DNA from: a virus
Reading direction: 5' to 3' (one strand)
Length of the DNA stretch: 64,000 nt
Virus record (IMG/VR): IMGVR_UViG_3300023175_000005
Span: 124,001-188,000 of that record
In this document: in pieces, positions 6,816 to 63,620 of the stretch
Position numbering within the stretch: the first letter of the stretch is position 1
How the letters are laid out: every line of letters starts with the position of its first letter
Notes under the pieces: generated by a model
The model's database searches: none
Told to the model about the DNA's origin: nothing
The model's input: only the letters and a program-made list of their open reading frames with translations
Position numbers and translations under genes: made by a program

Positions 6816-6816
6816 C

Positions 6817-15048: not shown

Positions 15049-15976
15049 AATACTAGACTATGACATTATCTATCTTAGTTATGACGAACCTAATGCTGAA
15101 AAAAACTATGCAGATTTGTGTAGGAAAATTCCTTGGGCTAAACGTGTACACGGTGTAGACGGAAGTGATGCAGCACACAAGGCATGTGCAGAACTTTCAG
15201 AGACGGATAGATTTATTACTATCGATGGCGATAATATTATTGATTCTGAGTTTCTTACAAAAGAATATGATTTAGAAACACACGAAGACATGCACTGGAA
15301 TCGTGATATAAAGTTTGAAGACTGTGTAGTAAGTTGGAGTGCTAGAAATACAATTAACGGACTAATGTACGGTAACGGCGGTATTAAATGCTGGCCTAAA
15401 GATAAAGTGTTAAACATGCGTACACACGAAAATGCAGATCCTAATAATGCACATGCTCAAGTTGATTTTTGTTGGGACTTAGAATATATTCAAATGAATG
15501 CGTGTTATAGCGAAATTATGAATAATGCTACTCCGCAGCAAGCATGGCGTGCTGGATTTAGAGAAGGTGTCAAAATGGCACTTGACAGAGGTATGAAACC
15601 TACTTTGAATGATTTTAAACGTAATCATTGGAAGAACTTGCATCGTTTGTATATTTGGCTAATGATAGGCGCTGATGTAGAAAATGGTAAATGGGCTATT
15701 TACGGCGCAAGAGAAGGTCTTTATAAAACAATGTGTACGGATTGGGACTTTGTAAATGTTCGTGATTTTAAATGGTTAAATGAATATTGGGCAAATGAAG
15801 TTGAATCTAAAGTATCTTTAGAAGGACTTGAAGATTCAATTGAGGAATATGGTATTAAACTAATTAACGAACTCGATTTACCTATTGCTGAAGAATGCTT
15901 AACTGCACAACAAAGTAATTTTTTCAAAACAGTATATCAAAATCCGGGTAGAACTGCTGGACAACAATTTATATGA
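15035..15976 (+). CDS. DGD-motif glycosyltransferase-like protein
   Basis: 313 residues. N-terminal YDIIYLSYDEPNAEKNY, then RVHGVDGSDAAHKACAE and DRFITIDGDNII, with a DxD-type motif at residues 64-66. NTINGLMYGNGGIKCWPKD follows. The same order of blocks forms the C-terminal domain of the 854-aa repeat protein at 31720 (YDVVFISYQEPNADENY, RVHGVKG, IVDGDAQIV, NPINDLVYGYGGLKLFP), so the two share a family. The later part (residues ~165-250, QAWRAGFREGVKMALDRG and WAIYGAREGLYKTM) is also shared. An enzymatic role is inferred from the DGD motif. The gene overlaps its neighbours by 14 and 4 bases. Confidence 0.6.
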   Translation: MSKFKILDYDIIYLSYDEPNAEKNYADLCRKIPWAKRVHGVDGSDAAHKACAELSETDRFITIDGDNIIDSEFLTKEYDLETHEDMHWNRDIKFEDCVVSWSARNTINGLMYGNGGIKCWPKDKVLNMRTHENADPNNAHAQVDFCWDLEYIQMNACYSEIMNNATPQQAWRAGFREGVKMALDRGMKPTLNDFKRNHWKNLHRLYIWLMIGADVENGKWAIYGAREGLYKTMCTDWDFVNVRDFKWLNEYWANEVESKVSLEGLEDSIEEYGIKLINELDLPIAEECLTAQQSNFFKTVYQNPGRTAGQQFI

Positions 15977-17355
15977 AATCAGAAACAGATAGAATTAAAG
16001 AAGCCGCTAGTATAATGGAGGATGTAAGTCCGACATTCTGTTTGGCTAAGTGGCATCATACTACAATTTATTTACACACAGGTGATACACACAGTTGCTA
16101 TCATCCGTCGCCGCATAAGATTGATTTAGAAGAAATTAAAAACAATCCTAGTGCATTGCACAATACACTTACAAAGAAAAAAGAACGTGCAAAAATGCTT
16201 GTAGGTGAAAAACCTAAAGGCTGTACCTATTGCTGGAATGTCGAAGCACTAGGAGATGATCATATTTCTGATAGAAACATTCGTAATGAAAGTATTTACA
16301 AGCCTGAGCGATTACAAGAAATTGTAGATTCGCCTTGGGATTTTGACGTAAATCCAGAATATATCGAAATTGCATTTAGTAATGAATGCAATTTTAAATG
16401 TGGATATTGTTCACCTATGGCAAGTAGTAGCTTTTATAACGAAGTCAAAAAACATGGTCCGTATGATATGGTTAAAAATCATCGATGCGATGTTGATTGG
16501 TTTCAGCCTATGGAAGAAGGATCAAATCCTTACGTAGATGCATGGTGGAAATGGTGGCCTGAAGTAAGTAAGACACTAAACATTTTACGCATTACAGGCG
16601 GTGAGCCTCTTATGCATAAAAGCACATGGCGTATATTTGACGAACTTAAAGAAAATCCACGTCCTCATATTGAACTTAACCTCAATAGTAACATGGGTTT
16701 AAGTCCACGCATTGTGTCTAAGTTTGCCGATAATGTAAAAGAACTTTTAGAAGGTAACAAAATTAAAAAGTTTAAAGTATATTCTAGTATAGATACATTT
16801 GATAATCGTGCAGAATATCTTCGCACAGGTTTAGATGTAAATCTTTGGGAAAGTAATATGAAAAACTTTTTAAATATTACTGGCTCCGATTTAACAATCA
16901 TGTGTACGTTTAATATTCTTAGTGTTACAAGTTTTAATTTATTCCTACAAAAAGTTTTAGATTGGCGTAAAGAATTTTATGATCCTAAGCGTAGACGTAT
17001 TAGATTTGATACACCTTATCTAAAAGAACCGTTACAATATGATATGCATATTTTACCTAAGGATGAATTTTTGCCTTACATGGATAAAATTTTACAATTT
17101 ATTAATGACAATAGAGACGACAAAGACACTACGAAATTTAGTGATTTAGAATATGAACGTTTTCGTAGAGTAAGAAATTATTTTGCAAATGTTAACTATG
17201 ACGAACCGAGAGTAAAAGAAGGCAGAGCAGATTTTTACAATTGGTTTAATGAATATGATGTTAGAAGAAACGTTAATTTTTTAGAAACATTTCCTGAGAT
17301 GGAAGGGTTTTATAATTTATGTAAGCAAACTAAGGATGAACTAGAAGTTGTCTAA
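15973..17355 (+). CDS. Radical SAM protein with N-terminal twitch-like Cys module
   Basis: 460 residues. The radical SAM CxxxCxxC is at Cys139, Cys143 and Cys146 (CNFKCGYC), and the SAM-contacting GGEP is at 209-212 (RITGGEPLM). Before the barrel, Cys23, Cys42, Cys84 and Cys87 (CTYC) form a module likely to bind an auxiliary [4Fe-4S] cluster. Such proteins are called twitch-domain radical SAM proteins. All four N-terminal Cys positions are identical in the 507-aa protein at 30197, its closest relative here. The C-terminus (RRNVNFLETFPEMEGFY) carries a tail shared by several paralogues. Substrate unknown. It overlaps both neighbours by 4-8 bases. Confidence 0.88.
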   Translation: MKSETDRIKEAASIMEDVSPTFCLAKWHHTTIYLHTGDTHSCYHPSPHKIDLEEIKNNPSALHNTLTKKKERAKMLVGEKPKGCTYCWNVEALGDDHISDRNIRNESIYKPERLQEIVDSPWDFDVNPEYIEIAFSNECNFKCGYCSPMASSSFYNEVKKHGPYDMVKNHRCDVDWFQPMEEGSNPYVDAWWKWWPEVSKTLNILRITGGEPLMHKSTWRIFDELKENPRPHIELNLNSNMGLSPRIVSKFADNVKELLEGNKIKKFKVYSSIDTFDNRAEYLRTGLDVNLWESNMKNFLNITGSDLTIMCTFNILSVTSFNLFLQKVLDWRKEFYDPKRRRIRFDTPYLKEPLQYDMHILPKDEFLPYMDKILQFINDNRDDKDTTKFSDLEYERFRRVRNYFANVNYDEPRVKEGRADFYNWFNEYDVRRNVNFLETFPEMEGFYNLCKQTKDELEVV

Positions 17356-18190
17356 TTTGTTTTGTTACGGGTGCAGTTTTACAAATTACAGTTGGCCTAT
17401 GTATCCTGAATACTTGGCACAGGAGTTTGATAAAACATTTAATTGTGGATTATCTGGTTTAGGTAATTTTGCAATATATCATAGATTACTAGGCACTGTT
17501 TTAGAAAACAAAATTAAAGAAAATGATACTGTAATTGTTCAGTGGTCAGAGCCATCAAGGCATGATTACCTTGACAAAGAAGAAGAATGGTCTAATATTG
17601 GCGGCGGCTTAGCCTTAGAACTAACTGCAAAAAGATTAGATCATATTATATCTCATAGTTCGTCTTACGTTAAAACTTTGACATATATGTTTCATACAGT
17701 TAACTTACTTGAATCTTTAAAAGTTAACTGGACTTTTCTTTTTCTTACACCAGATGCAATGGCACACCTAAGTATTCAAAGAGGTAAACATATAGATTTA
17801 GCAGGACATCAAAAACGCATAGCACAAAATATGACGAACAAAGTTAACAAGTATCGTCATAAGTTTATCGAGTTACCATTAATGCATCACTTTAATCATA
17901 AAGATCCTGTGTTTATGACAAATCATGGTGGCAATTGGTGGGATGACCATCCTAGACCTAAATCAACATATAAATTTGTAAAGGAAGTTTTAGCACCAAA
18001 ATTACAAATTAATACTAATAATATAACTAGTTACAACAAATATGTTTGTAACAGAATATTTGTACCTGTAAAAGAAAGAACATACAATCAAGAATTTATG
18101 ATTGAAGCAATGCGTGAGTTACCTGACAATCTCAAGTATAGTTATGATATAAGTGAATTAATAAATGAAACAATTGATATGGGCATATAA
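17348..18190 (+). CDS. SGNH/GDSL hydrolase-like protein
   Basis: 280 residues, TTG start inside the preceding gene. The N-terminal FCYGCSFTNYSW resembles the GDS block I with the candidate nucleophile Ser10. NCGLSGLGNFAIYH resembles block II, VIVQWSEPSR block III, and WWDDHPRPKS could supply the C-terminal Asp/His. SGNH enzymes are esterases or O-acetyl transferases and deacetylases that act on glycans or lipids. Relatives lie at 29287 and 36450. A role in de-/acylating a glycan is plausible, but divergence is high, so activity is not certain. Confidence 0.55.
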   Translation: MSNLFCYGCSFTNYSWPMYPEYLAQEFDKTFNCGLSGLGNFAIYHRLLGTVLENKIKENDTVIVQWSEPSRHDYLDKEEEWSNIGGGLALELTAKRLDHIISHSSSYVKTLTYMFHTVNLLESLKVNWTFLFLTPDAMAHLSIQRGKHIDLAGHQKRIAQNMTNKVNKYRHKFIELPLMHHFNHKDPVFMTNHGGNWWDDHPRPKSTYKFVKEVLAPKLQINTNNITSYNKYVCNRIFVPVKERTYNQEFMIEAMRELPDNLKYSYDISELINETIDMGI

Positions 18191-19472
18191 TTGGATTGGG
18201 CCACTAGGTCCTTTAAATAACCATAAGATACCAGATGTATATGATCTGGCTAAGCGCATTGACGACATTGATGTTAAGTTTAGCGATGCAACAATGGAGC
18301 ATGATCCTGCTGTTATGGAGATAGGAAATTTTGTACCTTGCAAAATTATTCCATCTTCCGAGATAAAAGATATAGGGGATAGCAAATTTTTCTATGAAGT
18401 TATTTTAAGTCCTAACTTAAATTACATGTCTATCACAATGGATATGTTTTGCGGATTTTTACAAAGAACGCCTATTCCTGGCGAGGTTTGGGATAAAATT
18501 TACAATGGTAACGGATATCTATTTGTAAACTGTAGATATGAAAGTTTTGTTACGCATAGAGATTTTCAAACATTACATGATTATTTTAATAGTCAAGGTG
18601 TGCCCTTGAACAAAGTTATCTATGCAACAAACTGTGCAAATATACAAACTATTTACGACAAGTACTGTTTACAAGCAGGTGTAGGCGAAGATAAATTAAA
18701 TGTCGAATATATGGGTTTGTATATACAAATTACAAAAGACATTTTACGTGATGAAGTTTATGAAAGTCGTGTTGACTTGGGCAAACAAGATAGATTGTTT
18801 TTAAATTTTAACAGACGTAGTCATGAACATCGTATGTTGCTGTTATTGCAAATGATTAAAAATGATATGCTAGATGACTGTCATATGAGTTTTGACAGAC
18901 ATGGAGGTGTTAATAGACCATTTGAACATTTTATATACGATTTTGAGAGAACTTCTTCAAAATATAATTTAGAATTTGAAAGAGAAGATTTTGAAAATTT
19001 ATGGGACGATTTGCCTTTTGTGCTAGACAGTAAACATTTTGACAGATTTCCTGTAGAAGAACACTTAATGGATACTGCTGAATGGTATGATCGAACATAT
19101 ATTCATCTTGCAAGCGAAACAAATTTTGAAAATAATGTAATTCATTTGACAGAAAAAACAATGAAGCCAATTATATTCAAACAACCATTTATTATTGTTG
19201 GCCCTGCGTTTACACTTCAGTATCTTAAAAAATTAGGATTTAAAACTTTTGATGCTTGGTGGGACGAAAGTTATGATGAAACACTAAATGGGAAAGATAG
19301 AATGCAAGCAATTATAAAAGTATGTAAAGATATCAAGTCTTGGCCTAAACAAAAATTAAAACAGTTATATACACAAACACATGAGATACGAGAATACAAT
19401 ATTCAACATTTTAAAAATTTAAAACCTGTAGAACTATTAGATCTTGTTGAAAAATATGGAGCAGACATATGA
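18165..19472 (+). CDS. GT10-like (fucosyltransferase-type) glycosyltransferase-like protein
   Basis: 435 residues. An N-R-R-x-x-x-x-R block (FLNFNRRSHEHR) lies near residues 212-223. The C-terminal signature is HLTEKTMKPIIFKQPFIIVG (TEK at 329-331), followed by LKKLGFKTFDAWWDESYDE. The E-K-x(4)-P-type signature resembles the donor-binding region of family GT10 fucosyltransferases. The same two blocks occur in the 409-aa gene at 20434 and twice in the 721-aa gene at 23554, defining a local family. ATG at 18165 overlaps the upstream gene by 26 bases. Donor and acceptor unknown. The neighbouring GDP-sugar epimerase would fit a GDP-sugar donor. Confidence 0.5.
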   Translation: MKQLIWAYNWIGPLGPLNNHKIPDVYDLAKRIDDIDVKFSDATMEHDPAVMEIGNFVPCKIIPSSEIKDIGDSKFFYEVILSPNLNYMSITMDMFCGFLQRTPIPGEVWDKIYNGNGYLFVNCRYESFVTHRDFQTLHDYFNSQGVPLNKVIYATNCANIQTIYDKYCLQAGVGEDKLNVEYMGLYIQITKDILRDEVYESRVDLGKQDRLFLNFNRRSHEHRMLLLLQMIKNDMLDDCHMSFDRHGGVNRPFEHFIYDFERTSSKYNLEFEREDFENLWDDLPFVLDSKHFDRFPVEEHLMDTAEWYDRTYIHLASETNFENNVIHLTEKTMKPIIFKQPFIIVGPAFTLQYLKKLGFKTFDAWWDESYDETLNGKDRMQAIIKVCKDIKSWPKQKLKQLYTQTHEIREYNIQHFKNLKPVELLDLVEKYGADI

Positions 19473-20437
19473 GTAAGGTATTAGTATGCGGAGCCGGAGG
19501 ATTCATTGGAGTTCATTTGGTAAGAAGTTTAAAAGCACAAGGACATTATGTAATTGGTGCAGATTTAGAGTATCCTGAATTTAGCGAAACCGAATGTGAT
19601 GAATTTCATATTGTAGATTTGCGAGAACAAGCAGATGTACGTAAATTAATTACAGAAGACATTTATGAAATATATCAACTTGCTGCGGATATGGGAGGAG
19701 CAGGATATATTTTTACAGGCGATAATGATGCTGATATTATGCACAACTCTGCTATGATTAATCTTAACATTTTGAAAGAAATGGTTGTTAAAGGTGTAAA
19801 ACGTATTTTTTATAGTTCAAGTGCTTGCATGTATCCTGAACACAATCAGATGGATCCTGATAATCCTTTGTGTAGCGAAGAAAGTGCGTATCCAGCAAAT
19901 CCTGATTCTGAATATGGTTGGGAAAAATTATTCAGCGAACGCTTGTGTATGTCTTTTGAAAAGAATTATGGTATACGTGCAAGAATGTGTCGTTTTCATA
20001 ATGTGTTTGGACCAGAAAGCACATGGACTGGAGGTAAAGAAAAATCTCCCGCAGCCTTATGTAGAAAAGTTGCAATGAGCGAAGACGAAACTGTAGAAAT
20101 TTGGGGACCTGGCACACAAACAAGAAGTTTTCTTTATATCGATGAAGCTATTGAAGGCATTCATAGGATTATGGAAAGCGATTATAATCAGCCGTTAAAT
20201 CTTGGCAGTGAACGTATGATTGCTATAAATGATTTAGCACACCTAATTGCGAGTGTTAACACTAACAAAAAACTGAGAATTAATAATGTGCCAGGACCTG
20301 TTGGTGTTAATGGCAGAAACAGTCATAATAAACTTATTAAGGAAACCATTGGTTGGGCACCGCAAGACAATTTAGAATATGGCTTGCAACAAACTTATCA
20401 ATGGATACTACAACAAATTGAGAAACAAGAAAATTGA
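19469..20437 (+). CDS. gme: GDP-mannose 3,5-epimerase-like SDR enzyme
   Basis: 322 residues, full length for an extended SDR. NAD-binding GAGGFIG at residues 8-14; catalytic Ser within SSSACMYPE (116-124); YGWEK with Tyr149 and Lys153. RFHNVFGPESTWTGGKEKSP, AALCRKVA, EIWGPGTQTRSFLYIDE and NLGSERMIAINDLA follow the order and wording of plant-type GDP-mannose 3',5'-epimerase, which makes GDP-L-galactose and GDP-L-gulose. This is the most specific assignment in the array. The product would supply an unusual L-hexose to the GT10-like neighbours on both sides. It overlaps them by 4 bases each. Confidence 0.85.
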   Translation: MSKVLVCGAGGFIGVHLVRSLKAQGHYVIGADLEYPEFSETECDEFHIVDLREQADVRKLITEDIYEIYQLAADMGGAGYIFTGDNDADIMHNSAMINLNILKEMVVKGVKRIFYSSSACMYPEHNQMDPDNPLCSEESAYPANPDSEYGWEKLFSERLCMSFEKNYGIRARMCRFHNVFGPESTWTGGKEKSPAALCRKVAMSEDETVEIWGPGTQTRSFLYIDEAIEGIHRIMESDYNQPLNLGSERMIAINDLAHLIASVNTNKKLRINNVPGPVGVNGRNSHNKLIKETIGWAPQDNLEYGLQQTYQWILQQIEKQEN

Positions 20438-21663
20438 AACTTGCTGCATACTATCATGATAAAATAGGAAATATGCACGGTGTACAGCCGTACATTTTTG
20501 ATACGTGGTTATATTCTCGAACACTGAAAAAAGCAGGTTTTGGTATAAAACAAATTAAAGATGGGTGGAACTGGCCTGGAATATATTTTGTAAGTGTTGC
20601 AGGTCATTCTAATGATTGGGGAACACATGACAATCATGTGTTAAACAATTTGCCCAGCGAAGTTGCTAATGCAGTTCGTAGAGGAAAAATTAAAATTGTA
20701 ATTGATAATTCGTCTGAAGGTATGAATATGATATTTCCTGGATGTGATGGGTTTTATAATATGCACGAAATAATGGAAGAAAATGATTTTCATAAAAATA
20801 GTGTTATACTTATGGACGGCAATGCAGATTTCTCTACAAATTATTTAACATGGTGTAACAGAAATTGGGATATACCGTTGTTTGCACATGTTCATAGTTT
20901 TACGCATACCTTTTATTTCGATAATAGAATACCACAAAGCGCACTAGTTATAAATGCTATTAAAAATAAAGATTCCAAAGATTTCCTTAGCATGAATAGA
21001 AATACAAGACCATCAAGGCTGGAGCATTTATTTTGGTTGTTAGATACAGGTTATGTAAGCAAGGGACTTGTAAGTGGAAGTTTACCGCAAAAAGAACAAG
21101 TAGGTGCGCCTAGTAGAATTACACTACAGGATGACAATTTATGGAATAAAACCTTGCTCAAAGGTTTGCCTTTAGACATAGATGGCGTAGATTGTAAAAG
21201 TGACCCTGACAAAGATGCCACTATTTTTAATCATGCCCTTTATGAAAATAGTTTGCTCAGTGTGGTTACAGAAACTGCATTTGCAGAAGAAGGGATGTTT
21301 ATTACAGAAAAAGTAATGAAACCCATTGCAGCAGGACATCCTTTTATGATATTAGGACAATTTAGAGTCTTAAAATATCTAAGAAGTTTAGGTTATAAAA
21401 CTGACTTTGAAGGCATAGATCAAAGTTACGATGAGATTTTAAATCCTAACGAAAGATTCCAAGCATTTCATAAAAGTTTAGAAAATTGGATTAAATTGAC
21501 AAGAGCACAAAAAGAAGATATAATTATGGAAAATCTAAATAAGATTACATATAATCAAAATTTATTTAGATCTACAAATTATAATAGAGATACTGGATTG
21601 CGACTCATGACAACTGTTCAAAATCTTTTTAACAATAAATATACTATCAATGAAAAAAATTAG
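20434..21663 (+). CDS. GT10-like glycosyltransferase-like protein
   Basis: 409 residues, TTG start overlapping the epimerase stop. FLSMNRNTRPSRLEHLFWLL parallels the N-R...R block of the 18165 protein. FITEKVMKPIAAGHPFMILG, then LRSLGYKTDF and DQSYDEILN, parallel its C-terminal signature. The N-terminal ~200 residues are not recognisable but contain a Trp/His-rich stretch (AGHSNDWGTHDNHVL). The likely fold is GT-B with a donor site around TEK. Context between an NDP-sugar epimerase and a radical SAM gene supports glycan assembly. Specificity unknown. Confidence 0.5.
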   Translation: MKLAAYYHDKIGNMHGVQPYIFDTWLYSRTLKKAGFGIKQIKDGWNWPGIYFVSVAGHSNDWGTHDNHVLNNLPSEVANAVRRGKIKIVIDNSSEGMNMIFPGCDGFYNMHEIMEENDFHKNSVILMDGNADFSTNYLTWCNRNWDIPLFAHVHSFTHTFYFDNRIPQSALVINAIKNKDSKDFLSMNRNTRPSRLEHLFWLLDTGYVSKGLVSGSLPQKEQVGAPSRITLQDDNLWNKTLLKGLPLDIDGVDCKSDPDKDATIFNHALYENSLLSVVTETAFAEEGMFITEKVMKPIAAGHPFMILGQFRVLKYLRSLGYKTDFEGIDQSYDEILNPNERFQAFHKSLENWIKLTRAQKEDIIMENLNKITYNQNLFRSTNYNRDTGLRLMTTVQNLFNNKYTINEKN

Positions 21664-26891: not shown

Positions 26892-26898
26892 ATATTGC

Positions 26899-30177: not shown

Positions 30178-30196
30178 TTTATAAAAAGGATTTCGT

Positions 30197-35179: not shown

Positions 35180-35393
35180 GTTTACAACTAGACAGTTGCA
35201 ATTAGAATGTGCAAGAGCACTGAGCACAATGCAAGCAACTAATAACAACATATGGCAGTTTAACAAAGAAGCACACCATAACAGTTGGAATTGGTATTGT
35301 GCTGTCATACACTGGTATATTGAACAGTATGGTGATTTACCTAGTAAAGTCGGCCCTGGCAAGGATGTGGAGTTAGTTTACGATAATGTATAA
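35166..35393 (+). CDS. Small Trp/His-rich hypothetical protein
   Basis: 75 residues, TTG start; GAGG at 35152-35155 is an acceptable ribosome site. Sequence features include TRQLQLECARALSTMQ and NSWNWYCAVIHWYIEQYG. Not recognised. It exactly fills the space between the methyltransferase-like and radical SAM genes, overlapping both by 14 and 8 bases, which fits the packing of the array and supports it as real. It is the only protein this small in the array, so a role as a carrier, chaperone or modified peptide can be considered but is not supported by a recognisable leader or Cys pattern. Confidence 0.5.
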   Translation: MDLSKFTTRQLQLECARALSTMQATNNNIWQFNKEAHHNSWNWYCAVIHWYIEQYGDLPSKVGPGKDVELVYDNV

Positions 35394-54764: not shown

Positions 54765-55300
54765 ATTGGTATCACAGAAAACTTAAATTACAATACGATC
54801 CTAAGATTTTTAATGATATAGTAGAGTATGCTAAATCAAAAGATTGGAAACAAGGCTATGATCAAAACGGACTACAGTGGAACGTAGAAGAACTTCCGCT
54901 TGACGTTAAAGACTTTCCTATACTTGAAGAAATTTACGAAGGGTTTAACGCAGAATTTAAACGTCCGAGTTTCTTCCTAAGCAGTGTAAAGCCAGGCGGC
55001 CTAGTAAATCATATAGATCATCGCAAGTGGGGAAATTTTGGCATACCTCTTGTAGGAGACTTTAGCAAGACTCCTCAGTATTACTATGATCAATTTAATC
55101 ATCCTGTAGAAAAATTTGTAATGGATGCACCTACAATATTTTATACAAGGATGTTACATGCAGTGCCACGCAAACTTGATGATACGGAACCACGTTGGAT
55201 TCTAATGATGGATTTGTTTGATTGGATTGATAATTTGTTTAACAAAATAGATGACAACACAATATGGAAAAATACAGAACATTTTAAATATAATGGATAA
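54761..55300 (+). CDS. AspH-type Fe(II)/2OG oxygenase-like protein
   Basis: 179 residues; AAAAGGA at 54744-54750 precedes the ATG. KPGGLVNHIDHRKWGNFGIP gives His84-x-Asp86. APTIFYTRMLHAVPRKLDDT then EPRWILMMDL gives His133 and Arg145. The His-x-Asp ... His ... Arg order is that of small aspartyl hydroxylase-like dioxygenases. It overlaps the upstream oxygenase by four bases and the downstream B12-type radical SAM gene by eight, so radical and oxygenase steps may act together. Confidence 0.65.
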   Translation: MNWYHRKLKLQYDPKIFNDIVEYAKSKDWKQGYDQNGLQWNVEELPLDVKDFPILEEIYEGFNAEFKRPSFFLSSVKPGGLVNHIDHRKWGNFGIPLVGDFSKTPQYYYDQFNHPVEKFVMDAPTIFYTRMLHAVPRKLDDTEPRWILMMDLFDWIDNLFNKIDDNTIWKNTEHFKYNG

Positions 55301-56957: not shown

Positions 56958-57703
56958 CCCTTAACAAAAAAATGTTTATTGATTTAGACGAAATTATACA
57001 AGTTGAAAAGTGTCCAGATATAACAGATATGATTGTGGATAGTGTGAATCATATCAGACACAACTGTAATATTAGAACTTTTGATCTCAAAGGAAATCAA
57101 ATTAAAGATGCTTGGTATGCAAAACAGATATTAGACTGTGACCTTAAAGATAATAAAAAAATATTACAAGCAGAACTAAAACATGGTGTTAGAAGTCCTT
57201 ACTATGTATTAGCATTAAGAGAAGGTGGTCATGATAGTTATGTCTACGATTCGATAAACACAGATGATAATGTGTGGAAGAAGATAAAGTGGAAAGAAGA
57301 TTTAAAAGACACTTTTGCCCCTCTAATAGAATATATAGAATCTTTACCTTTAGATAGAATAGGTCATTGTAGTTTTTTTATAAACAGACCAGACATTATT
57401 CCTTGGTATCATGTCGATAGTGGCACAGACGACGAACTAGAAACGTGGAAACCGAAACCACACAGAGAAGAGTTTATATGGATAAACTTTAGCTCGGACA
57501 AAACATTTTACGTCTTAGACGAAAAGGTACCTGTTCCAATAACATCTAGAAGTGCTTTTTTTAACACAAACAACTATCATGGATCGCACGAAAGCACACC
57601 GAGGTATTCTTTCAGTTTACGTATTGAATGCGTTTTTTCGGAAAAATTAAGACAACAAATGGGAATTGCTCATTTAGAAAGGTACTATTACGAAAATGTA
57701 TAA
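56945..57703 (+). CDS. Fe(II)/2OG oxygenase-like protein
   Basis: 252 residues. IIPWYHVDSGTDDE gives His156-x-Asp158. FIWINFSSDKTFYVLDEKVP and SRSAFFNTNNYHGSHESTPR give the distal His212 (or 215) and Arg220, followed by YSFSLRIECVF. The first 130 residues are not recognised but include GVRSPYYVLALREGG. The layout is again AspH-like. It overlaps the B12-type radical SAM gene by 13 bases. A 17-base gap with GAGATA precedes the next gene. Confidence 0.62.
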   Translation: MEKLTLNKKMFIDLDEIIQVEKCPDITDMIVDSVNHIRHNCNIRTFDLKGNQIKDAWYAKQILDCDLKDNKKILQAELKHGVRSPYYVLALREGGHDSYVYDSINTDDNVWKKIKWKEDLKDTFAPLIEYIESLPLDRIGHCSFFINRPDIIPWYHVDSGTDDELETWKPKPHREEFIWINFSSDKTFYVLDEKVPVPITSRSAFFNTNNYHGSHESTPRYSFSLRIECVFSEKLRQQMGIAHLERYYYENV

Positions 57704-57720
57704 CAATAACGAGATATTTT

Positions 57721-58719
57721 ATGTCGACTAAATTATTTGATTCTTTTGTGCATGATTTTTTAGAATGGAGCAAAACAAGTGTTGAACCAAAAAATGCTTG
57801 TCCATTTGCAAAAACTTCACGTGTCAAAAATCAAATACAATTTTTAGATGGCAGTTCTAATTTTGATGTTATTAAAGATTGGGATTCTTCTAAAGAAATG
57901 GGTGTGGTGTATCTTGGACAAGATGTAGACAAAGAAATAATAATGGAAAAAATATATAAAGCAAGGGCTAACGATCCTAGTAAAGTTTTTTTCTACACTG
58001 CACCTATTAAAGGAGTAAAAGATAATAATCCCTTTCAGTGTATAATAATTCATAATAAAAAAGAATTTATGTTGAAACAGCGTATTTTATACGAAAAAGG
58101 AGACTATTATAAAAATTATCCAGGAGAAAAATTAGACAAATTTATAAGTGTCTATCCAATAACAAAAACAACAAAGCAAAAAATTGGAACTGCAAAGCAA
58201 GGTAAAGTATTCCAACATTATTTTAAAGGACAAGGTAGTGTTTTAGATATTGGAGGCGCAGCAGGTAATTTATTATACTATGTACCTATAGCACAATACA
58301 CATGTATAGATGTAAATGAAAAAGCAATCAAGTTAGGTAAAGAAATTTATCCTGAGCATAATTTTATACATTGGAATAGGTACAACAGATACTATAATAA
58401 AACAGGATATGCTCTTTTGGAGTTTCCAAAAGTCAGTCCACATGATTTTACATTTGTTAACAGTGTTTTTACCAGTTGTGATCACGACACTATAATGCAC
58501 ATAATGTCAAATATTCTTAAAATAACAAATAAAAAAGTTGTTTTTAGTGTATTTGATTATAACAACAAAGAATTAAAAAACAAGTTAGGAAATGCTGTAA
58601 ATTATCATGACGTATTTAAATTAAAAAATGTTTTAGAATTTGAATTTAAAATAGATTGTAAAGTTTATAATCCTTGTAGTATAGATAATAATTTTGCAGT
58701 GTTTAGTATAGAAAGGTAA
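57721..58719 (+). CDS. Two-domain protein: CPFA domain plus class I methyltransferase
   Basis: 332 residues from ATG 57721, which lies in a gap; the frame is open to 57628 but that part overlaps the upstream gene. Residues 1-145 (FDSFVHDFLEWSK, CPFAKTSRVKNQIQFLDG) match the stand-alone 160-aa protein at 47906. Residues ~160-332 form a SAM-dependent methyltransferase: SVLDIGGAAGN at 173-183, CIDVNEKAIKLGK with acidic Asp197, and FVNSVFTSCDHDTIMHI as the later motif. The fusion suggests that the first domain presents the substrate. Target unknown. Confidence 0.72.
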   Translation: MSTKLFDSFVHDFLEWSKTSVEPKNACPFAKTSRVKNQIQFLDGSSNFDVIKDWDSSKEMGVVYLGQDVDKEIIMEKIYKARANDPSKVFFYTAPIKGVKDNNPFQCIIIHNKKEFMLKQRILYEKGDYYKNYPGEKLDKFISVYPITKTTKQKIGTAKQGKVFQHYFKGQGSVLDIGGAAGNLLYYVPIAQYTCIDVNEKAIKLGKEIYPEHNFIHWNRYNRYYNKTGYALLEFPKVSPHDFTFVNSVFTSCDHDTIMHIMSNILKITNKKVVFSVFDYNNKELKNKLGNAVNYHDVFKLKNVLEFEFKIDCKVYNPCSIDNNFAVFSIER

Positions 58720-58721
58720 AC

Positions 58722-59639
58722 ATGTATAACAATCCTCTTAATAAATTAATTTGGGATAAAGTGCAAGAAATGTTTTATTGGAACATTGCACCAGAATCTC
58801 CAATATGCCAATTGCCGTTTACACAAGAATTTATTGACGCATGTGAACAAGAATTTTCAATGACTGTTCGTGATATGCATTATCCTATTTCCTTAGGAAA
58901 AGTTGATCAATGGTTTGGTAAACGTATGCAAGATTTTGTAAAAGAAATTGACGCACAATATCAGCACAATTATTTTGTCGGAGAAAATGGAACTAGCACA
59001 ACTGGTGTAGTAGGAACTATATATGATGTTGACGAAAAACCTATTACAAACAAATGGAATATTAGAGGACAAGCACTTGTAGACAGATTACAGGCTATGC
59101 AAAAAGAAAATCCTAATTTAACAATTTTAGATATGGGTTGCGGAGTTAACGAATACAAAAAACATTTGAATAATGTTACTGGAGTTGATCCGTATAGAGA
59201 AGAAGCAGATATTTTGTCCAAGCAAAGTGATTTTATTACGCAAGGTAAAACTTGGGATATAATCATTTGCTTTGGCCCACAGAATTGGTATACTTACGAT
59301 GAACAATTTAGAAACTTCAAAAAACTCAAAGAATGTTTGGCACCGGGCGGGTTACTTTTGTGGTCGCACGTACATCACTATTATAAAGTATTTCAGCCCG
59401 ATCATCTTTATGCGCACACTTGGATACACGGAGACATGGATCATGCTCAACGTAATAGTGCTTTTTATTTTTATGATCGCGATTGGAAATATACTTGGTA
59501 TTTCAATTGGACCGAACATGCCGTAGAAACACTTGCTAAACATGTAGGACTGTCTATTGATAAAGTAGATTATGATCATTGTAATTTATATAGACCGCCT
59601 ATGTATAGAATATTTGTGGAGATGACACATGAAAAATAG
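58722..59639 (+). CDS. Class I SAM-dependent methyltransferase
   Basis: 305 residues; GAAAGG at 58711-58716 precedes the ATG. TILDMGCGVNEY at 134-145 is motif I. VTGVDPYREEADIL with Asp156 is the acidic strand-2 end. IIICFGPQNWYTYDEQFRNF and LAPGGLLLWSHVHHYYKVF are motifs IV-V. The N-terminal ~110 residues carry a separate helical region (QWFGKRMQDFVKEIDAQ). It is the clearest methyltransferase here. With neighbouring AspH-like genes it likely acts on the same intermediate or polymer. Substrate unknown. Confidence 0.78.
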   Translation: MYNNPLNKLIWDKVQEMFYWNIAPESPICQLPFTQEFIDACEQEFSMTVRDMHYPISLGKVDQWFGKRMQDFVKEIDAQYQHNYFVGENGTSTTGVVGTIYDVDEKPITNKWNIRGQALVDRLQAMQKENPNLTILDMGCGVNEYKKHLNNVTGVDPYREEADILSKQSDFITQGKTWDIIICFGPQNWYTYDEQFRNFKKLKECLAPGGLLLWSHVHHYYKVFQPDHLYAHTWIHGDMDHAQRNSAFYFYDRDWKYTWYFNWTEHAVETLAKHVGLSIDKVDYDHCNLYRPPMYRIFVEMTHEK

Positions 59640-60198
59640 ATGGGACGTAACAGTAGCAGCGTCTAATTATCATTGGGATCCTAACGCAAACGATAGCAAT
59701 ACTATTAGAATAATAAGTAATGTGTTTGATGAATGGAATGATGAAATCGAACGTGCTATAGAATTACAAAAACCTGTTATTAGTGACGGAACAATCGAAA
59801 AGCACATATCTGCCGGAACGCACATGTATAACGGAGTTATAGTTGATACTACAGAATTTCCAATACTCGGTAGTATCGGTAAAAAACTAGGATTTGAAGA
59901 ATATAATACAAGTATTCAAACACAAACTACTGGAATGACAACTCCATTGCATATAGATTCATCTTCTGGAGATAAAGAAAGAGTTATTGTTATGCTTCAA
60001 GACTGGTACTGGGGACAAATACTTCAATTTGGTAATATAGTATTACATAATTGGAAAGCAGGGGATGTATTATATTTTAGTATCAATGGTACACCGCATA
60101 GTACAGCAAATTTAAGTCCACATAGTAGAACTATAGCAAAAATTACAGGACGCACAACAGATGCATTTGAAAAATTATTAAAGGGAGAGTCTCAGTGA
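59629..60198 (+). CDS. Small Fe(II)/2OG (AspH-like) oxygenase, tandem copy 1
   Basis: 189 residues. TTPLHIDSSSGDKERVIVML gives His108-x-Asp110. WKAGDVLYFSINGTPHSTAN gives the distal His157; LSPHSRTIAKITG gives Arg167. It starts MKNRWDVTV, identical to the next gene, with which it shares a 27-base exact DNA match, QTQ.TGM and QFGN segments and the IPHSTAN/TPHSTAN site. It is a recent tandem duplicate. It overlaps the methyltransferase gene by 11 bases and the next gene by 4. Confidence 0.68.
   Translation: MKNRWDVTVAASNYHWDPNANDSNTIRIISNVFDEWNDEIERAIELQKPVISDGTIEKHISAGTHMYNGVIVDTTEFPILGSIGKKLGFEEYNTSIQTQTTGMTTPLHIDSSSGDKERVIVMLQDWYWGQILQFGNIVLHNWKAGDVLYFSINGTPHSTANLSPHSRTIAKITGRTTDAFEKLLKGESQ
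59630..59656 (+). repeat. 27-base direct repeat, copy 1
   Basis: The first codons of the tandem oxygenase genes are identical over 27 bases (from TGAAAAATAG to ACAGTAG); copy 2 lies at 60196-60222, 566 bases away. The match ends abruptly, while protein similarity continues. This fits a duplication whose 5' end was conserved or converted. Confidence 0.8.
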
Positions 60199-60857
60199 AA
60201 AATAGATGGGACGTAACAGTAGAACAAAGTAATTATGATTTTAATCCGTTTAGAGAAAGTGATCATGGCAAAAGCTTTAGAACAGTAGGAAATATAGAAC
60301 CTACATGGAAAGATGAAATACCTATTGCAAATGCTAATCAATACGACTTTTATTGGCCTTCGCCTGTGTCTCCAGAAGGCGACAGTTTTAATTATGACTA
60401 TGAAGAATTGCTTTGCAAGGATTGGGGTATACCTTTAGACTTTGTTGTATACAGACAGTGGACAACAACGGATGAAACACCAATACTAAACAGTCTAGCC
60501 GAACAAATCGGTTTAGAAAATGCACAAACAAATATTCAAACTCAACATACAGGAATGATGCTACATTTACATATAGATAGTTTAACTGGTTTACGAAAAG
60601 AACGTACAGATCAAACAAGTAGTAGAGCAACAGACGATGAATGGGGTAGATGCTTTGTAATGCTTGATGATTGGGCACCTGGACATATTATTCAATTTGG
60701 TAATACCTACGTACCACCTTGGCATGCAGGAGATGTAATTTGGTTTGATTGGGCAAACATACCACATAGCACTGCTAACACTGGACCATGGCCTAGAAAC
60801 ATTGCAAAAATTACAGGTAAAGTTACGCAAAGGTATAAAGAGTTTGTTGGAATCTAA
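60195..60857 (+). CDS. Small Fe(II)/2OG (AspH-like) oxygenase, tandem copy 2
   Basis: 220 residues from a GTG start preceded by GGGAGAG. HLHIDSLTGLRKERTDQ gives His126-x-Asp128; WHAGDVIWFDWANIPHSTAN gives His191; GPWPRNIAKITGKVTQRY gives Arg201. It is 31 residues longer than copy 1, mostly from inserts at 50-90 and 132-150 around the iron site. The two copies thus keep the metal site but differ in substrate-facing regions. The last codons overlap the next radical SAM gene. Confidence 0.68.
   Translation: MKNRWDVTVEQSNYDFNPFRESDHGKSFRTVGNIEPTWKDEIPIANANQYDFYWPSPVSPEGDSFNYDYEELLCKDWGIPLDFVVYRQWTTTDETPILNSLAEQIGLENAQTNIQTQHTGMMLHLHIDSLTGLRKERTDQTSSRATDDEWGRCFVMLDDWAPGHIIQFGNTYVPPWHAGDVIWFDWANIPHSTANTGPWPRNIAKITGKVTQRYKEFVGI
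60196..60222 (+). repeat. 27-base direct repeat, copy 2
   Basis: Partner of the repeat at 59630-59656, at the start of the second tandem oxygenase gene. Copy 2 begins with GTG where copy 1 has ATG; identity starts at the second base of the start codon. Confidence 0.8.
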
Positions 60858-61953
60858 ACCTAGTTGTTGGTTTGCTTATAAAGGTTTATCTGTAGATTCT
60901 ACAGGCAATCTAAATCCTTGCGGCCATAGCACTTATAAGTTTGGAAAATTTACTGACTACAACTCTTTGAATGTTGACAGAACAAATGCTATAAAAGATT
61001 TTGATCAACATGTTCCGAAAGGGTGCATTTCTTGTACAAATAGAGAAGTGAGAAACGAACAAAGTAGACGTTTATATCATTACGATTGGTTCAGTCAACA
61101 GGTAAATTTTGATATAGAATTTTTAGATATTGATATAGGTAATCTATGCAATCTCAAATGTAGAATGTGTAATCCTGGACAGTCGTCTAGTTGGATAAAA
61201 GATGGACACCTTAAAGATAAAGTTGATTTTACGTTAGACGATTTTGATAATAATAAGATTCTTGATAATATAAATGGCGATATGATAAAATTTTTATCTA
61301 GTTTAGATTCTTTAAGGTATATTATTATAAAAGGTGGAGAACCTTTTATGCATCCAAGATTCTTTGAGTTTATAGAATGTATTCCAAACAAGCATAACGT
61401 AAAATTACAGATTATTACCAATGGCACACATAAATTGACTAAAGATGAAAAGAGATTGTTTGCTAAATTTGATAAACTGAATATTTTCTTTTCAGTAGAA
61501 TCTGATGGAGAGATGTATCAATACATTAGAGGCGGAAAATTTACATTTGAAGAATCATTAGATAATTGGAAATCTTACAAAACGTTTCCTAATGCAAATG
61601 AAATTGGATGGATTTATACTGCAAACATTTATGGTATCTATAATTTTGATAGTTTACAGAGTAAAATAGAAAACTCTATTGATTTTGGACATCAAGTTCT
61701 TGATCCTATGTATTTGAATCCGTTGATTACACCTTTACATATAAAACAAAAAATATTAGAAACTACAAACTATTCTCATTGGAAAAAATATTTTGCAACT
61801 AGTGCAACAGATTTGTTTGGTATAAGCATAGACAAACAATACAAACTTTTATGCAATTTGTATTCTTACACAACAACATTAGATAATATTAGAAGACAAC
61901 ACCTTTTAGATGTAGAGCCCAGGTTTGAGTGGATTTATGAATACAACAAATAA
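60847..61953 (+). CDS. Radical SAM protein with N-terminal twitch-like Cys module
   Basis: 368 residues from TTG 60847 (TTG 60844 is equally possible); the frame is open to 60745 but that part lies inside the oxygenase gene and does not look like the family. Core Cys101, Cys105 and Cys108 (CNLKCRMC); IIKGGEPFMHPRFF follows. N-terminal Cys7 (SCWFAYKGL), Cys25 (LNPCGHS) and Cys60/Cys63 (CISCTNREVRNEQ). SVESDGEMYQYIRGGKFT resembles the 45059 protein. The C-terminus is LDNIRRQHLLDVEPRFEWIY, the shared tail. Substrate unknown. Confidence 0.85.
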   Translation: MESKPSCWFAYKGLSVDSTGNLNPCGHSTYKFGKFTDYNSLNVDRTNAIKDFDQHVPKGCISCTNREVRNEQSRRLYHYDWFSQQVNFDIEFLDIDIGNLCNLKCRMCNPGQSSSWIKDGHLKDKVDFTLDDFDNNKILDNINGDMIKFLSSLDSLRYIIIKGGEPFMHPRFFEFIECIPNKHNVKLQIITNGTHKLTKDEKRLFAKFDKLNIFFSVESDGEMYQYIRGGKFTFEESLDNWKSYKTFPNANEIGWIYTANIYGIYNFDSLQSKIENSIDFGHQVLDPMYLNPLITPLHIKQKILETTNYSHWKKYFATSATDLFGISIDKQYKLLCNLYSYTTTLDNIRRQHLLDVEPRFEWIYEYNK

Positions 61954-61972
61954 TTAGTGTATAGGAGAAGGT

Positions 61973-62716
61973 ATGATTGAAAAAGGCGTTACAATAGATT
62001 TACACGGAACCAAAAGAATTGGTATGAAATTGTCAGGTGGACCTGACAGTGCAATGATTCTTTATATGATTTGTAAAAAAATAACTGATGAGAATATAGA
62101 TATTGAATATATTCAACCAATTACTGCTACAGCAGATGTTAAACCATACAATATAAAATTTGCCAGAAGAGTAATTGAATGGATGCGAAATAGATATCCT
62201 AATATTGAAATCAAAGATACACATTGTGCTGTATGCAGATATGAAGAATATAATTCTCGACAAGAAGAATTAGTAAGGGATTTAATTTTAAACAGAGATA
62301 TTGATATTACATTTGCAGGAATTACAGCAAATCCTCCCGATGAAAAAGGCAGGAATTTTTGGCCTTGCAATCCTAAATACACTAGAGCAATTGAATTAGA
62401 CTTTGACGAGCATCCTGAAGACATTTCAAATGCAGATTGGAATACAAGAGCAGTTGAAAGAGACGAACCTGATGTCGAAGTTTATTGGTCTACTTGGAGA
62501 GGCAAGGACGAAAAAGTTCCAATGGTAAGACCTTTTATTAATCATGATAAAAGGAAAGTAGCAGAATTATATCATCACTACGATATTATGGAATTGTTTG
62601 ATATAACAAGATCTTGTGAAAACAGAGATGGTCCTGCGCTAAACGATTTCGAAGATCATTGCGAAACAGAATGTTGGTGGTGCTATGAACGTAGATGGGC
62701 CTTTGGGCGAGTTTAA
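61973..62716 (+). CDS. PP-loop ATP pyrophosphatase, QueC-like
   Basis: 247 residues; AGGAGAAGG at 61963-61971 is a strong site. KLSGGPDSAMILYMI carries the SGGxDS PP-loop (21-26). Near the C-terminus Cys215, Cys230, Cys234 and Cys237 (RSCEN...HCETECWWCYERRW) could bind zinc, as in QueC, which makes the 7-cyano-7-deazaguanine precursor. The middle is divergent (TFAGITANPPDEKGRNFWPC), and the Cys spacing differs from QueC, so it may adenylate and amidate or thiolate another carboxylate. No other queuosine-precursor gene is visible in the window. Confidence 0.65.
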   Translation: MIEKGVTIDLHGTKRIGMKLSGGPDSAMILYMICKKITDENIDIEYIQPITATADVKPYNIKFARRVIEWMRNRYPNIEIKDTHCAVCRYEEYNSRQEELVRDLILNRDIDITFAGITANPPDEKGRNFWPCNPKYTRAIELDFDEHPEDISNADWNTRAVERDEPDVEVYWSTWRGKDEKVPMVRPFINHDKRKVAELYHHYDIMELFDITRSCENRDGPALNDFEDHCETECWWCYERRWAFGRV

Positions 62717-63620
62717 GTATACAGGCTGGCACATTGAACTAACAAACAGATGTCCACTAGCATGTCCTGCATGTATTAGAACTATGCACGGGCCTGGTTC
62801 TAAGTCAGACATTGATACTAAATTACTTCTCAACTTTTTGCCTAATCCTGAAAAATATGATTACATATTTTTTCAAGGTAATTTGGGAGATCCTATATAT
62901 CATCCTGATTTCCACAAAATTTCAGAACATTTTTTCCCAGCAAATGAATTACAAGTTACAACAAATGGAATGCAAACAAAAGAGTTTTGGCAAAGAGTGC
63001 TAGAAACATGGCCCGAGTCTAGTATTGTTGAACTTAGTATAGACGGCCTACAAGACACTAATAGCATATACAGAGTTAACAGTAATTGGAACAAAATACA
63101 AGAACTTTTTGAACTTATAGCAACTACTAAACGCAAATGTCAGATTATATGGAAGTATATTGTTTTTGAACACAATCATCATCAAGTTGAAGAAGCAATA
63201 GCCTTAAGTAAAAAAATAGGCATGAATGAATTTAAAATTAAAAAAAGTTGGACTATACATGATGACATGTCCAATAATGGCCAAGTTAAAGACTATTATA
63301 ATCCAGAATGGTTTGATTATGTAAAAAGAGAAACACTTGACGAATTAGCACCTTTCTGTTATACTGGAGACATGCATTATATAAATTCGCAAGGTAACTA
63401 TTATCCTTGTTGTTGGATAGATAACGACATAAGTTCTGTAGGACACATATCAGAAGGTTTAGATAGTATTAAAGATAAATTTTTAAACTTTAGTAACTTA
63501 TTAATTTGGAGTAAATGTCCTAAAGTATGCAGAAAAATGTGTTGTAAAATTAGTGATAACGATAAAGAAATGATTACACCTAACAACGTTGTTGATAGAA
63601 AAATAATAGTAAATGATTGA
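62685..63620 (+). CDS. Radical SAM/SPASM-type protein
   Basis: 311 residues. Core Cys23, Cys27 and Cys30 (CPLACPAC). FFQGNLGDPIYHPDFHK sits in the GGEP position. LSIDGLQDTNSIYRVNSNW and FEHNHHQVEEAIALSKK match 35386 and 41793. SPASM-like end: APFCYTGD, YYPCCWIDN, then KCPKVCRKMCCKIS. It is the last enzyme of the array; it overlaps the PP-loop gene by 32 bases and the transporter start by 8. Substrate unknown. Confidence 0.86.
   Translation: MNVDGPLGEFKYTGWHIELTNRCPLACPACIRTMHGPGSKSDIDTKLLLNFLPNPEKYDYIFFQGNLGDPIYHPDFHKISEHFFPANELQVTTNGMQTKEFWQRVLETWPESSIVELSIDGLQDTNSIYRVNSNWNKIQELFELIATTKRKCQIIWKYIVFEHNHHQVEEAIALSKKIGMNEFKIKKSWTIHDDMSNNGQVKDYYNPEWFDYVKRETLDELAPFCYTGDMHYINSQGNYYPCCWIDNDISSVGHISEGLDSIKDKFLNFSNLLIWSKCPKVCRKMCCKISDNDKEMITPNNVVDRKIIVND

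Follow-up and report, generated by a model that had tools for sequence, protein, structure and literature searches.

The stretch of DNA analysed here (the window, 64,000 nucleotides) comprises bases 124001-188000 of the 256,558-bp virus record IMGVR_UViG_3300023175_000005, which belongs to a jumbo phage of the T4 superfamily. Its main feature is an array of radical S-adenosylmethionine (rSAM) genes intermingled with oxygenase-, transferase- and sugar-nucleotide-related genes, numbered here from g01 at the left edge onwards. An earlier note based on the sequence had announced 17 rSAM genes on one strand, and all 17 are confirmed on the + strand within positions 15973-63620 (the island), each with an intact CxxxCxxC motif. 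PF04055 matches all of them, 16 in the Pfam scan (13 above the cut-off) and g51 in a genome search, the matches below the cut-off being g18, g29 and g30 (Pfam scan) and g51 (25.5 bits, genome search). Together they occupy 21,927 of the 47,648 nt of the island (46%). The genes overlap as the note had claimed: 41 of 45 junctions do so, the remaining four leave 66 nt, and coding coverage of the array reaches 99.86%. In the longest open reading frames (ORFs), three rSAM genes start at 42785, 55251 and 60745, versus 42806, 55293 and 60847 in that note. The genome search finds 19 PF04055 matches in the whole record (16 in the array and 3 outside); because it missed g18, the true number is at least 20. 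The corresponding whole-record counts are 5 in KVP40, 6 in K566, 1 in HTVC008M, 11 each in CP220 and CPt10, and 2 in S-SCSM2R. A second small rSAM group lies outside the window on the - strand (record positions 223516-225346), with a g12-like neighbour.

The T4-like nature of the phage is well founded. Homologues of gp23, gp20, gp17, gp43 and other T4 core genes are scattered across the record, with 25-42% identity to HTVC008M and KVP40 proteins. The major capsid protein gp23 is 70% identical to those of Sinorhizobium phage Phosso and Vibrio phage 2.275.O, and 65% identical to those of CBB/GAP32-type jumbo phages; at the DNA level, a 6.7-kb query found no match in GenBank phage records. Directly upstream of the array lies a structural module in which ORFs 4746, 6817 and 8734 have PHROG tail or virion matches, and relatives of ORFs 8734 and 10225 sit before g01 in other phages with such arrays.

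Nine of the 17 rSAM enzymes have an N-terminal auxiliary-cluster (twitch) domain, and in eight of these nine a C-x17-20-C ... C-x2-C pattern precedes CxxxCxxC, g32 lacking one cysteine. By score (302 bits, cut-off 170), g18 belongs to the NCBIfam family NF033640, a twitch-domain rSAM family whose title names no function, and it has the N-terminal twitch cysteines; of the two other rSAMs compared with that model, g51 reaches 35 bits and g39 is unlisted. B12 domains occur in three rSAMs (g11, g39 and g43). Compared with solved structures, the profile of the g37 family matches an unnamed rSAM (8vpo, E 6e-11), SkfB (9e-10) and BlsE (5e-6), and its N-terminal part weakly matches the C-terminal twitch domain of BtrN (E 9e-4). 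The predicted g37 model (pLDDT 91) has the rSAM core (Z 11.8, root-mean-square deviation 4.1, 209 residues aligned to anSME), and SkfB, viperin, SuiB, BlsE and anSME are among the solved structures closest to it, a mixture that does not separate sugar from peptide substrates.

Several of these enzymes are closer to relatives in other phages than to their paralogues in the window, the best relative elsewhere versus the best paralogue giving 87% versus 23% for g38, 93% versus 31% for g28, 87% versus 30% for g22 and 77% versus 31% for g37. These are ancient enzymes that have been conserved separately from one another, in keeping with distinct steps. The same does not apply to g39, g43 and g51, whose relatives in other phages are not far closer than their paralogues. 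The separation of g26 and g27 recurs in the relative G004 and, more distantly, in locus L110 of G020, and a plain sequencing error thus does not account for it; these are either two genes or the products of a programmed frameshift. Other split or fused forms occur elsewhere: a g38-like rSAM of ~225-250 amino acids (aa) is followed by a separate g38-like piece of 112-129 aa in L105, L113/L114, L020, L035, L140, L141 and L176 (phages and Bdellovibrionota), and fused rSAM proteins are found in L079 (1412 aa, three rSAM matches) and in L105 and L114 (about 850-864 aa, two matches).

The enzymes accompanying the rSAM run are of variable solidity. Both amidinotransferases of the earlier note are firm (g16 at E=1e-96 and g31 at E=1e-25 to StrB1). 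The g16 profile matches StrB1 better than glycine amidinotransferase (2e-52), and the StrB1 alignment is near full-length, with an HCxTLD-type motif, covering residues 8-345 of 352 in g16 and 37-346 of 348 in g31. The sugar-nucleotide enzymes g09 and g13 are equally firm. One of the two proposed pyridoxal phosphate (PLP) proteins, g15, is secure but truncated, and the other, g33, has no profile or PDB match. Relatives of g15 conserve a Lys-containing SFxxxK...GxGG region. The gene adjoins g16 in the window and in L075; its relatives in S-SCSM2R (37%) and L075 (36%) lie near or next to a g16 relative, none being listed beside that of L286 (67%). Relatives of g15 with 195-242 aa exist in other phages. 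Eight His-x-Asp oxygenase-like genes had been proposed, of which Pfam recognises one (g14) as a 2-oxoglutarate (2OG) enzyme and the other seven are assigned by motif only; HxD...H...R is present in seven of the eight, g34 lacking the spaced R. The three SGNH-like proteins all possess GCS[FW]T and [DE]xHP, and one (g23) has a Pfam match. A PHROG scan of ten 2OG- and SGNH-like genes gave two weak matches, among them that of g47 to a 'DNA endonuclease' (E 2e-4). Among the three supposed methyltransferases, g46 is firm, g45 weak (E 0.0035) and g20 unmatched.

Glycosyl transfer is suggested by g05 and g19, which align as one family with invariant D64/D66. Neither has a Pfam match, and sequence profiles of g05/g19 and g20 retrieve nothing from the PDB. 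With the g05 model, all eight Foldseek matches at E<=0.001 are the S-glycosyltransferases SunS/ThuS, RmlT or cellulose synthase, at low TM-scores; in VIA-align, B4GALNT1 comes first (Z 9.8), nucleotidyltransferases also being listed. The g19 protein (31720-34284) has 854 aa here, with several N-terminal repeats, and most of its relatives have about 220-250 aa and consist of the C-terminal GT-A domain only. Within G004, g08 has its closest counterpart in the ortholog of g10 (27.5% identity across 178 aa).

Conservation of the array in other viral records has been established from two anchors. A protein search of viral stretches with g37 gave 113 relatives, from which 79 loci were kept; in the records of 39 such loci, PF04055 matches number between 5 and 22 per record, such as 19 within 57 kb, 17 within 46 kb or 13 within 33 kb. 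Counts were made on 74 g37-anchored loci of <=21 kb (five near relatives left out) and on 78 g38-anchored loci (two left out). The 74 loci hold g28 in 54, g37 at >=45% identity in 46, g38 in 43, g05/g19 in 37, g22 in 37, g20 in 34 and g21 in 33. Six of the genes, g19, g20, g22, g28, g37 and g38, are referred to here as the skeleton; at least four of them are present in 34 loci, and 31 of these 34 keep the order of the window. The left edge, from the fibre genes through g01, g02 and g03 to g05, is likewise kept in the window, L083-L086, L088, L089, L104 and L116.

The best marker of such arrays is g38, confirmed in at least 579 viral stretches (579 of 600 pattern stretches); the product of such arrays, whatever it is, is common in viral metagenomes. 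In 50,697 GenBank phage records, g38 has no match. Of 80 g38 loci kept, two near relatives of the window and nine with <8 kb upstream were dropped, and in all 69 usable loci the 10 kb upstream of g38 contain at least three other rSAM genes (5.3 on average; of 364 in total, 348 share the strand), common ancestry meaning that these are not 69 independent events. The g05/g19 family is present in 43 of 49 other array records, taken whole, and gp23 (PF07068) exceeds the Pfam cut-off in 17 of 25 long array records, the window's included.

Selection has maintained these genes. The ratio of non-synonymous to synonymous substitution rates (dN/dS) between the window and G004 is 0.02-0.33 where orthologs were found, with 0 at two genes whose proteins are identical; the 15 rSAM genes (of 17) that have a G004 ortholog fall within 0.03-0.26, which denotes purifying selection. 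In the G004 stretches examined, g08, g29, g42, g43 and g47 have low-identity matches only and g44 has none. Across the sequences compared, CxxxCxxC is kept in 669 of 681 rSAM ORFs (the loci overlap and the genes are not independent). The array is a conserved system, not cargo. Conserved order, retained motifs and purifying selection bear out the single dedicated pathway proposed earlier, and the synteny in related phages is that of neither unrelated insertions nor inactive remnants.

Related arrays are also found in bacteria. A twitch-rSAM profile scan of bacterial genomes yielded at least 71 loci, with several loci per genome, and 43 of the 71 listed are Bdellovibrionota-type by record title. 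Five of them (L123, L124, L137, L144 and L162) have several skeleton genes, with g28 at 59-62% identity, and four of the five also have g38 at 57-66%, plus g20, g22 or g05/g19 relatives. In scans whose phylum names come from the titles of centre genomes, and in which only part of the first-pass candidates was scored in some genomes, g38 was detected in 17 of 290 Bdellovibrionota genomes (the phylum of G044, a Bdellovibrionia bacterium) and in none of 398 Pseudomonadota (the phylum of a Sphingomonas) or 199 Bacillota genomes (the phylum of a Paenibacillus), these two zeros coming from scans that held no positive genome, with a query that is positive in other scans. The idea that the bacterial arrays are merely T4-like phages is rejected for Bdellovibrionota, as gp23 (PF07068) is absent from all 12 g38-positive genomes tested. 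Two metagenome-assembled genomes, MED685 (L117) and MED657 (L142), carry both g38 and gp23 (in MED685 on one contig, C3) and have been set aside as phage sequence introduced by binning contamination. The g05/g19 family is present in 10 of the 12 g38-positive Bdellovibrionota genomes, and within 10 kb of g38 in six (G043, G044, G049, G054, G217 and G265). Among 46 non-rSAM proteins of Bdellovibrionota arrays, GT2 (2), QueC-like (2), UDP-sugar dehydrogenase (1) and PMT (1) were recognised.

The g38 tree places 11 bacterial sequences together with a single divergent sequence from a phage (L061; support 1.0), away from the remaining phages; it is unrooted, and hence no direction of transfer is claimed. 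A recent transfer of g38 is rejected, the bacterial sequences standing apart from all phage sequences but L061. The flanks of the G044 array include, by eye, ligA, gatA, gatB, prfA, murA and serS on one side and gmhA on the other; past gmhA on the right (L199, G044:C15:668001-688000), two integrase/recombinase-like ORFs and one transposase-like ORF are seen, and the array could be part of a mobile island.

The reading that we favour, to which we give a probability of about one half, is that the island encodes an assembly line whose product is an extensively edited glycan, displayed on virion fibres or on the host surface. The presence and conservation of the genes are observed, and from them we infer substrates, order of steps and attachment site. 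Nucleoside diphosphate (NDP) sugars or cyclitols would be made and then aminated, the amines converted to guanidines and the chain assembled by the glycosyltransferases. The rSAM paralogues would carry out successive C-H steps (dehydrogenation, epimerisation, deoxygenation), the three B12 enzymes would C-methylate, the 2OG enzymes would hydroxylate, and the SGNH enzymes would trim or move acyl groups. Attachment, the least certain step, may be to the virion tail fibres, the module lying right behind their genes, or to the host envelope, where it would block superinfection. Bdellovibrionota arrays would produce a related surface glycan. Three observations favour a glycan: the rSAM run has, in phages and bacteria alike, a probable glycosyltransferase family as its companion; this phage adds an aminotransferase and an amidinotransferase, a pair that typically yields guanidino sugars or cyclitols and that occurs together with glycosyltransferases in another phage; and the array is placed behind tail-fibre genes. 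Of the products envisaged by the earlier note (surface glycan, metabolite or modified protein), the first thus gains from the GT-A family, the StrB1-like amidinotransferase, the DegT protein and the UDP-glucose dehydrogenase, the last three being accessory elsewhere, and the protein or peptide option remains a rival.

Several observations weigh against a glycan product. Known glycan pathways use few rSAM enzymes; the g37 model is as similar to peptide-acting enzymes (SkfB, SuiB, anSME, EpeE) as to nucleotide- or sugar-acting ones (BlsE, viperin, DesII). The fold of g05 is common to the nucleotidyltransferases MobA and IspD (Z 8.2-8.9), and SunS/ThuS, its best matches, glycosylate peptides. Neither a flippase nor a polymerase nor an initiating transferase was recognised. 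The g15 protein is shortened by about 50 residues internally and has no C-terminal domain. In the loci of <=21 kb, an amidinotransferase occurs in 10 of 74 and 1 of 78 and a DegT protein in 1 of 74 and 1 of 78; the amine/guanidine branch lies outside the core, as an accessory found here and in a few other phages. Within 10 kb upstream of g38, g28 is found in 38 and g37 in 18 of the 69 loci, and individual rSAM genes thus vary more than the run itself. The figure of 43 in 49 records lacks a negative control, so that the g05/g19 family may just be widespread among phages of this kind. A Pfam survey of non-rSAM proteins in other phage arrays (109 scanned of 115 picked, the last six left out) gave no glycosyltransferase among the 25 of 38 families listed; it gave Asp/Asn hydroxylase-like (Asp_Arg_Hydrox, 9/109) and nitroreductase-like proteins (4/109), which fit protein chemistry too, and single matches to carbamoyltransferase, FkbM methyltransferase, AMP-binding, Asn synthase and UDP-sugar dehydrogenase.

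A protein or peptide modification line, in which twitch/SPASM rSAMs, B12-rSAM C-methylases, 2OG hydroxylases and methyltransferases act on a virion protein such as a tail fibre or on a peptide, possibly glycosylated as well, is the alternative to be taken most seriously, even if we hold it to be somewhat unlikely. Its weight comes from the rSAM type, the hydroxylases and the resemblance of g05 to the peptide S-glycosyltransferases SunS/ThuS. Proteusins, among the heavily modified ribosomally synthesised and post-translationally modified peptides (RiPPs), offer an analogue; the g37 profile and model lie near SkfB, SuiB, EpeE and anSME among others; the Asp_Arg_Hydrox, nitroreductase, AMP-binding and Asn synthase matches of other arrays are compatible, and long structural proteins adjoin the array. 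This reading is opposed by the probable glycosyltransferase family that accompanies the arrays and by the lack of a recognisable precursor-like gene at 99.86% coverage with 66 nt uncovered, small ORFs in other frames not having been searched. The only listed array ORF below 100 aa, g21, is judged unlikely to be a RiPP precursor, being evenly conserved with no variable core; by tblastn it is found, among the bacterial-collection loci examined, only in L117, L142 and L152. Nor does any PqqD or RiPP recognition element (RRE) family of Pfam match g01-g50 at E<=0.01, in a search blind to structure-only RREs. A fibre protein that is both glycosylated and edited would satisfy the glycan and protein readings alike.

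A small-molecule or cofactor pathway, yielding an aminoglycoside-like metabolite or viperin-type nucleotide analogues against host, competitors or defence, is improbable: the StrB1-like and BtrN-like elements recall aminocyclitol antibiotics and viperin and BlsE are structural neighbours of g37, but a free metabolite needs neither glycosyltransferases nor a position behind tail fibres, no exporter or self-resistance gene was recognised, and the viperin family model gives g18 only 23 bits (cut-off 180). Hypermodification of DNA, with sugars or amino groups built onto bases, appears very improbable even though T4 relatives glycosylate their DNA, a QueE-like gene lies elsewhere in the record, outside the array, and g50 is QueC-like; the record shows no match to thymidylate-synthase/hydroxymethylase or to PTPS/QueD (controls positive in 9 of 14 genomes each), and related arrays reside in bacterial genomes that lack gp23. 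Least credible is a set of unrelated, decaying cargo insertions in a hypervariable region. Gene exchange between close relatives, visible in the six genes that are divergent or missing in G004 (g08, g29, g42, g43, g47 and g44), is what such a region would display, but purifying selection, the 669 of 681 intact motifs, the conserved order and the 69 of 69 clustering contradict it.

Related gene collections have been described, contrary to the opinion of the earlier note that no system of this composition was known. The Campylobacter phages CP220 and CPt10 are reported to have 11 and 12 rSAM proteins, and their central interchangeable module, with five rSAM genes and a putative glycine amidinotransferase, was suggested to be metabolic and non-essential (PMC2853527). 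These T4-like phages (Firehammervirus) share an rSAM run plus an amidinotransferase with the window. The present array differs in being larger, in following tail-fibre genes and in that the closest solved relative of g16 is StrB1; g16 is 34% (CP220) and 24% (CPt10) identical to their amidinotransferase, and the stretches examined gave no best match to g19, g20, g28 or g37 at E<=1e-3 (ORFs >=80 aa). The host recognition cluster of pelagimyophages is hypervariable and combines tail fibres, glycosyltransferases, read as modifying the O-chain, and rSAM cassettes, again in T4-like phages, here marine ones (PMC7029224). The window differs from it in a gp23 closest to Phosso, 2.275.O and CBB-type phages; cultured HTVC008M has one PF04055 match, and its VrlC and gp14, used as queries, have no match in the record of the window, where tail fibres adjoin the array. 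In the light of these two reports, the array is a variant of a known, unexplained kind. A virome study further reports enrichment of rSAM, methyltransferase and glycosyltransferase genes in Tasman Sea samples (PMC7150976), and rSAM genes are remarked on in a paper on Campylobacter phage IBB_35 (PMC3322345). Judging by titles and abstract openings, no published description of the skeleton, of the g38 marker or of the link with Bdellovibrionota was found.

Other likenesses come from sequence comparison. The cassette of Synechococcus phage S-SCSM2R (PQ898602) contains glycosyltransferases, a compact DegT protein (37%), an rSAM, a 2OG enzyme and an inosamine-type amidinotransferase (41%), but it has one rSAM only and no best match to g19, g20, g22, g28, g37 or g38. 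The large T4-superfamily Vibrio phages KVP40, K566 and nt-1 have distant g37/g49 relatives (20-29% identity), with no best match to g19, g20, g28 or g38 in the stretches of KVP40 and K566 examined. Distantly related g37 sequences also occur in the Vibrio phages QD01 and CZ01, which like nt-1 have Vibrio natriegens as host. With the aminocyclitol enzymes StrB1 and BtrN, the array shares the g16/g31 alignment and the weak twitch match, the twitch here being N-terminal; no cyclitol synthase or other gene of an aminocyclitol pathway was identified, cyclitol-synthase families not having been searched for.

Three findings go beyond the earlier note, namely the skeleton, the position of the twitch domain at the N-terminus and the arrays in Bdellovibrionota. 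The skeleton and the bacterial copies turn an odd gene list into a testable pathway, bring many rSAM enzymes of an unassigned twitch type within reach and connect phage host recognition with predatory bacteria. A broader proposal, which we regard as doubtful, is that T4-superfamily phages and Bdellovibrionota have in common an anciently diverged N-terminal-twitch rSAM/GT-A line that edits a host-recognition surface conjugate (phage tail fibres, predator surface), giving an undescribed class of hyper-modified glycans or glycoproteins whose structural diversity would be fixed by the number and set of rSAM paralogues. Bdellovibrio is reported to recognise its prey via chimeric fibre proteins (PMC10769870), which makes the common array suggestive, no more.

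Table 1. Features of the window, with positions counted from its first base
Feature	Positions	Strand	Description	Basis
Tail-fibre/structural virion module	246..12402	+	ORFs 246, 4124, 4746, 6817, 8734, 10225, 11131; directly upstream of array	
g01	12442..12789	+	115 aa, conserved left-edge gene	
g02, g03	12786..14469	+	GT8/glycogenin-like glycosyltransferases with DxD	profile vs PDB glycogenin E 5e-4; invariant D105/D107
g04	14470..15048	+	relatives in L104 and L116	
g05	15035..15976	+	GT-A fold, probable glycosyltransferase, DxD invariant	model pLDDT 84, Foldseek
g06	15973..17355	+	rSAM, N-terminal twitch	PF04055; cysteines
g07	17348..18190	+	SGNH-like	GCSFT...DDHP motif
g08	18165..19472	+	glycosyltransferase-like by eye only	no profile match
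g09	19469..20437	+	NDP-sugar epimerase/dehydratase	PF01370 E=1e-42
g10	20434..21663	+	distant relative of g08	no profile match
g11	21650..23614	+	B12-binding rSAM	PF02310 + PF04055
g12	23554..25719	+	glycosyltransferase-like by eye only	no profile match
g13	25716..26891	+	UDP-glucose/GDP-mannose dehydrogenase	PF03721 + PF00984
g14	26863..27639	+	2OG-Fe(II) oxygenase	PF13640 E=9e-13
g15	27545..28267	+	compact DegT aminotransferase	PF01041 E=2e-18
g16	28245..29303	+	StrB1-like amidinotransferase	1bwd E=1.2e-96, HCxTLD aligned
g17	29254..30177	+	SGNH-like	motif
g18	30197..31720	+	rSAM, N-terminal twitch, NF033640	302 bits, cut-off 170
g19	31720..34284	+	skeleton gene: g05-like GT-A domain + N-terminal repeats	family alignments
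g20	34271..35179	+	skeleton gene, methyltransferase-like by eye	no profile/PDB match
g21	35166..35393	+	75 aa, conserved	alignment
g22	35386..36453	+	skeleton rSAM with C-terminal cysteines	PF04055
g23	36450..37175	+	SGNH-like, DUF6071	Pfam; motif
g24	37172..38170	+	2OG-like	HxD...H...R motif only
g25	38167..39492	+	rSAM, N-terminal twitch	PF04055 + PF13186
g26, g27	39492..40416	+	rSAM core (g26) and SPASM piece (g27), overlapping ORFs, different frames	
g28	40391..41815	+	skeleton rSAM, N-terminal twitch	
g29	41793..42809	+	rSAM-SPASM	
g30	42785..43993	+	rSAM, N-terminal twitch	PF04055 E=1e-6; cysteines
g31	44020..45066	+	second amidinotransferase	1bwd E=1e-25
g32	45059..46279	+	rSAM, N-terminal SPASM/twitch lacking second twitch Cys at usual spacing	
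g33	46242..47198	+	PLP-like by eye only; relatives in some Bdellovibrionota arrays	no match
g34	47176..47949	+	2OG-like	HxD...H only
g35	47906..48388	+		no match
g36	48381..49454	+	rSAM, N-terminal twitch	
g37	49441..50604	+	skeleton rSAM, N-terminal twitch	AlphaFold pLDDT 91
g38	50601..51779	+	skeleton rSAM, best marker of such arrays	
g39	51751..53604	+	B12-rSAM, closest named family KedN5	PF02310 + PF04055; 192 bits, below cut-off 700
g40	53597..54184	+	redoxin/AhpC-like	PF08534
g41, g42	54087..55300	+	2OG-like	HxD...H...R motif only
g43	55251..56957	+	B12-binding rSAM	
g44	56945..57703	+	2OG-like	motif only
g45 (weak), g46	57628..59639	+	S-adenosylmethionine methyltransferases	PF13847 E=0.0035, PF13489 E=5e-7
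g47, g48	59629..60857	+	2OG-like pair	motif only
g49	60745..61953	+	rSAM, N-terminal twitch	
g50	61973..62716	+	PP-loop/QueC-like	PF06508 E=1e-4
g51	62685..63620	+	rSAM-SPASM	TIGR04317 E=3e-15, below cut-off

The window contains neither RNA genes nor tRNAs, and the idea that these might be its key was rejected; the two tRNAs of the record both lie outside. The g40 gene, which adjoins a B12-rSAM gene inside the array, perhaps serves to protect Fe-S enzymes from oxygen. By eye, g35 (47906-48388) and the N-terminal half of g45 (57628-58719) look alike, with a CPFA-type stretch in both: a domain as yet without a name, duplicated inside the array. At the right end of the window, g52 (63613-64000) resembles by eye a TctA-type tricarboxylate transporter, a 429-aa copy of which follows in the relative G004.

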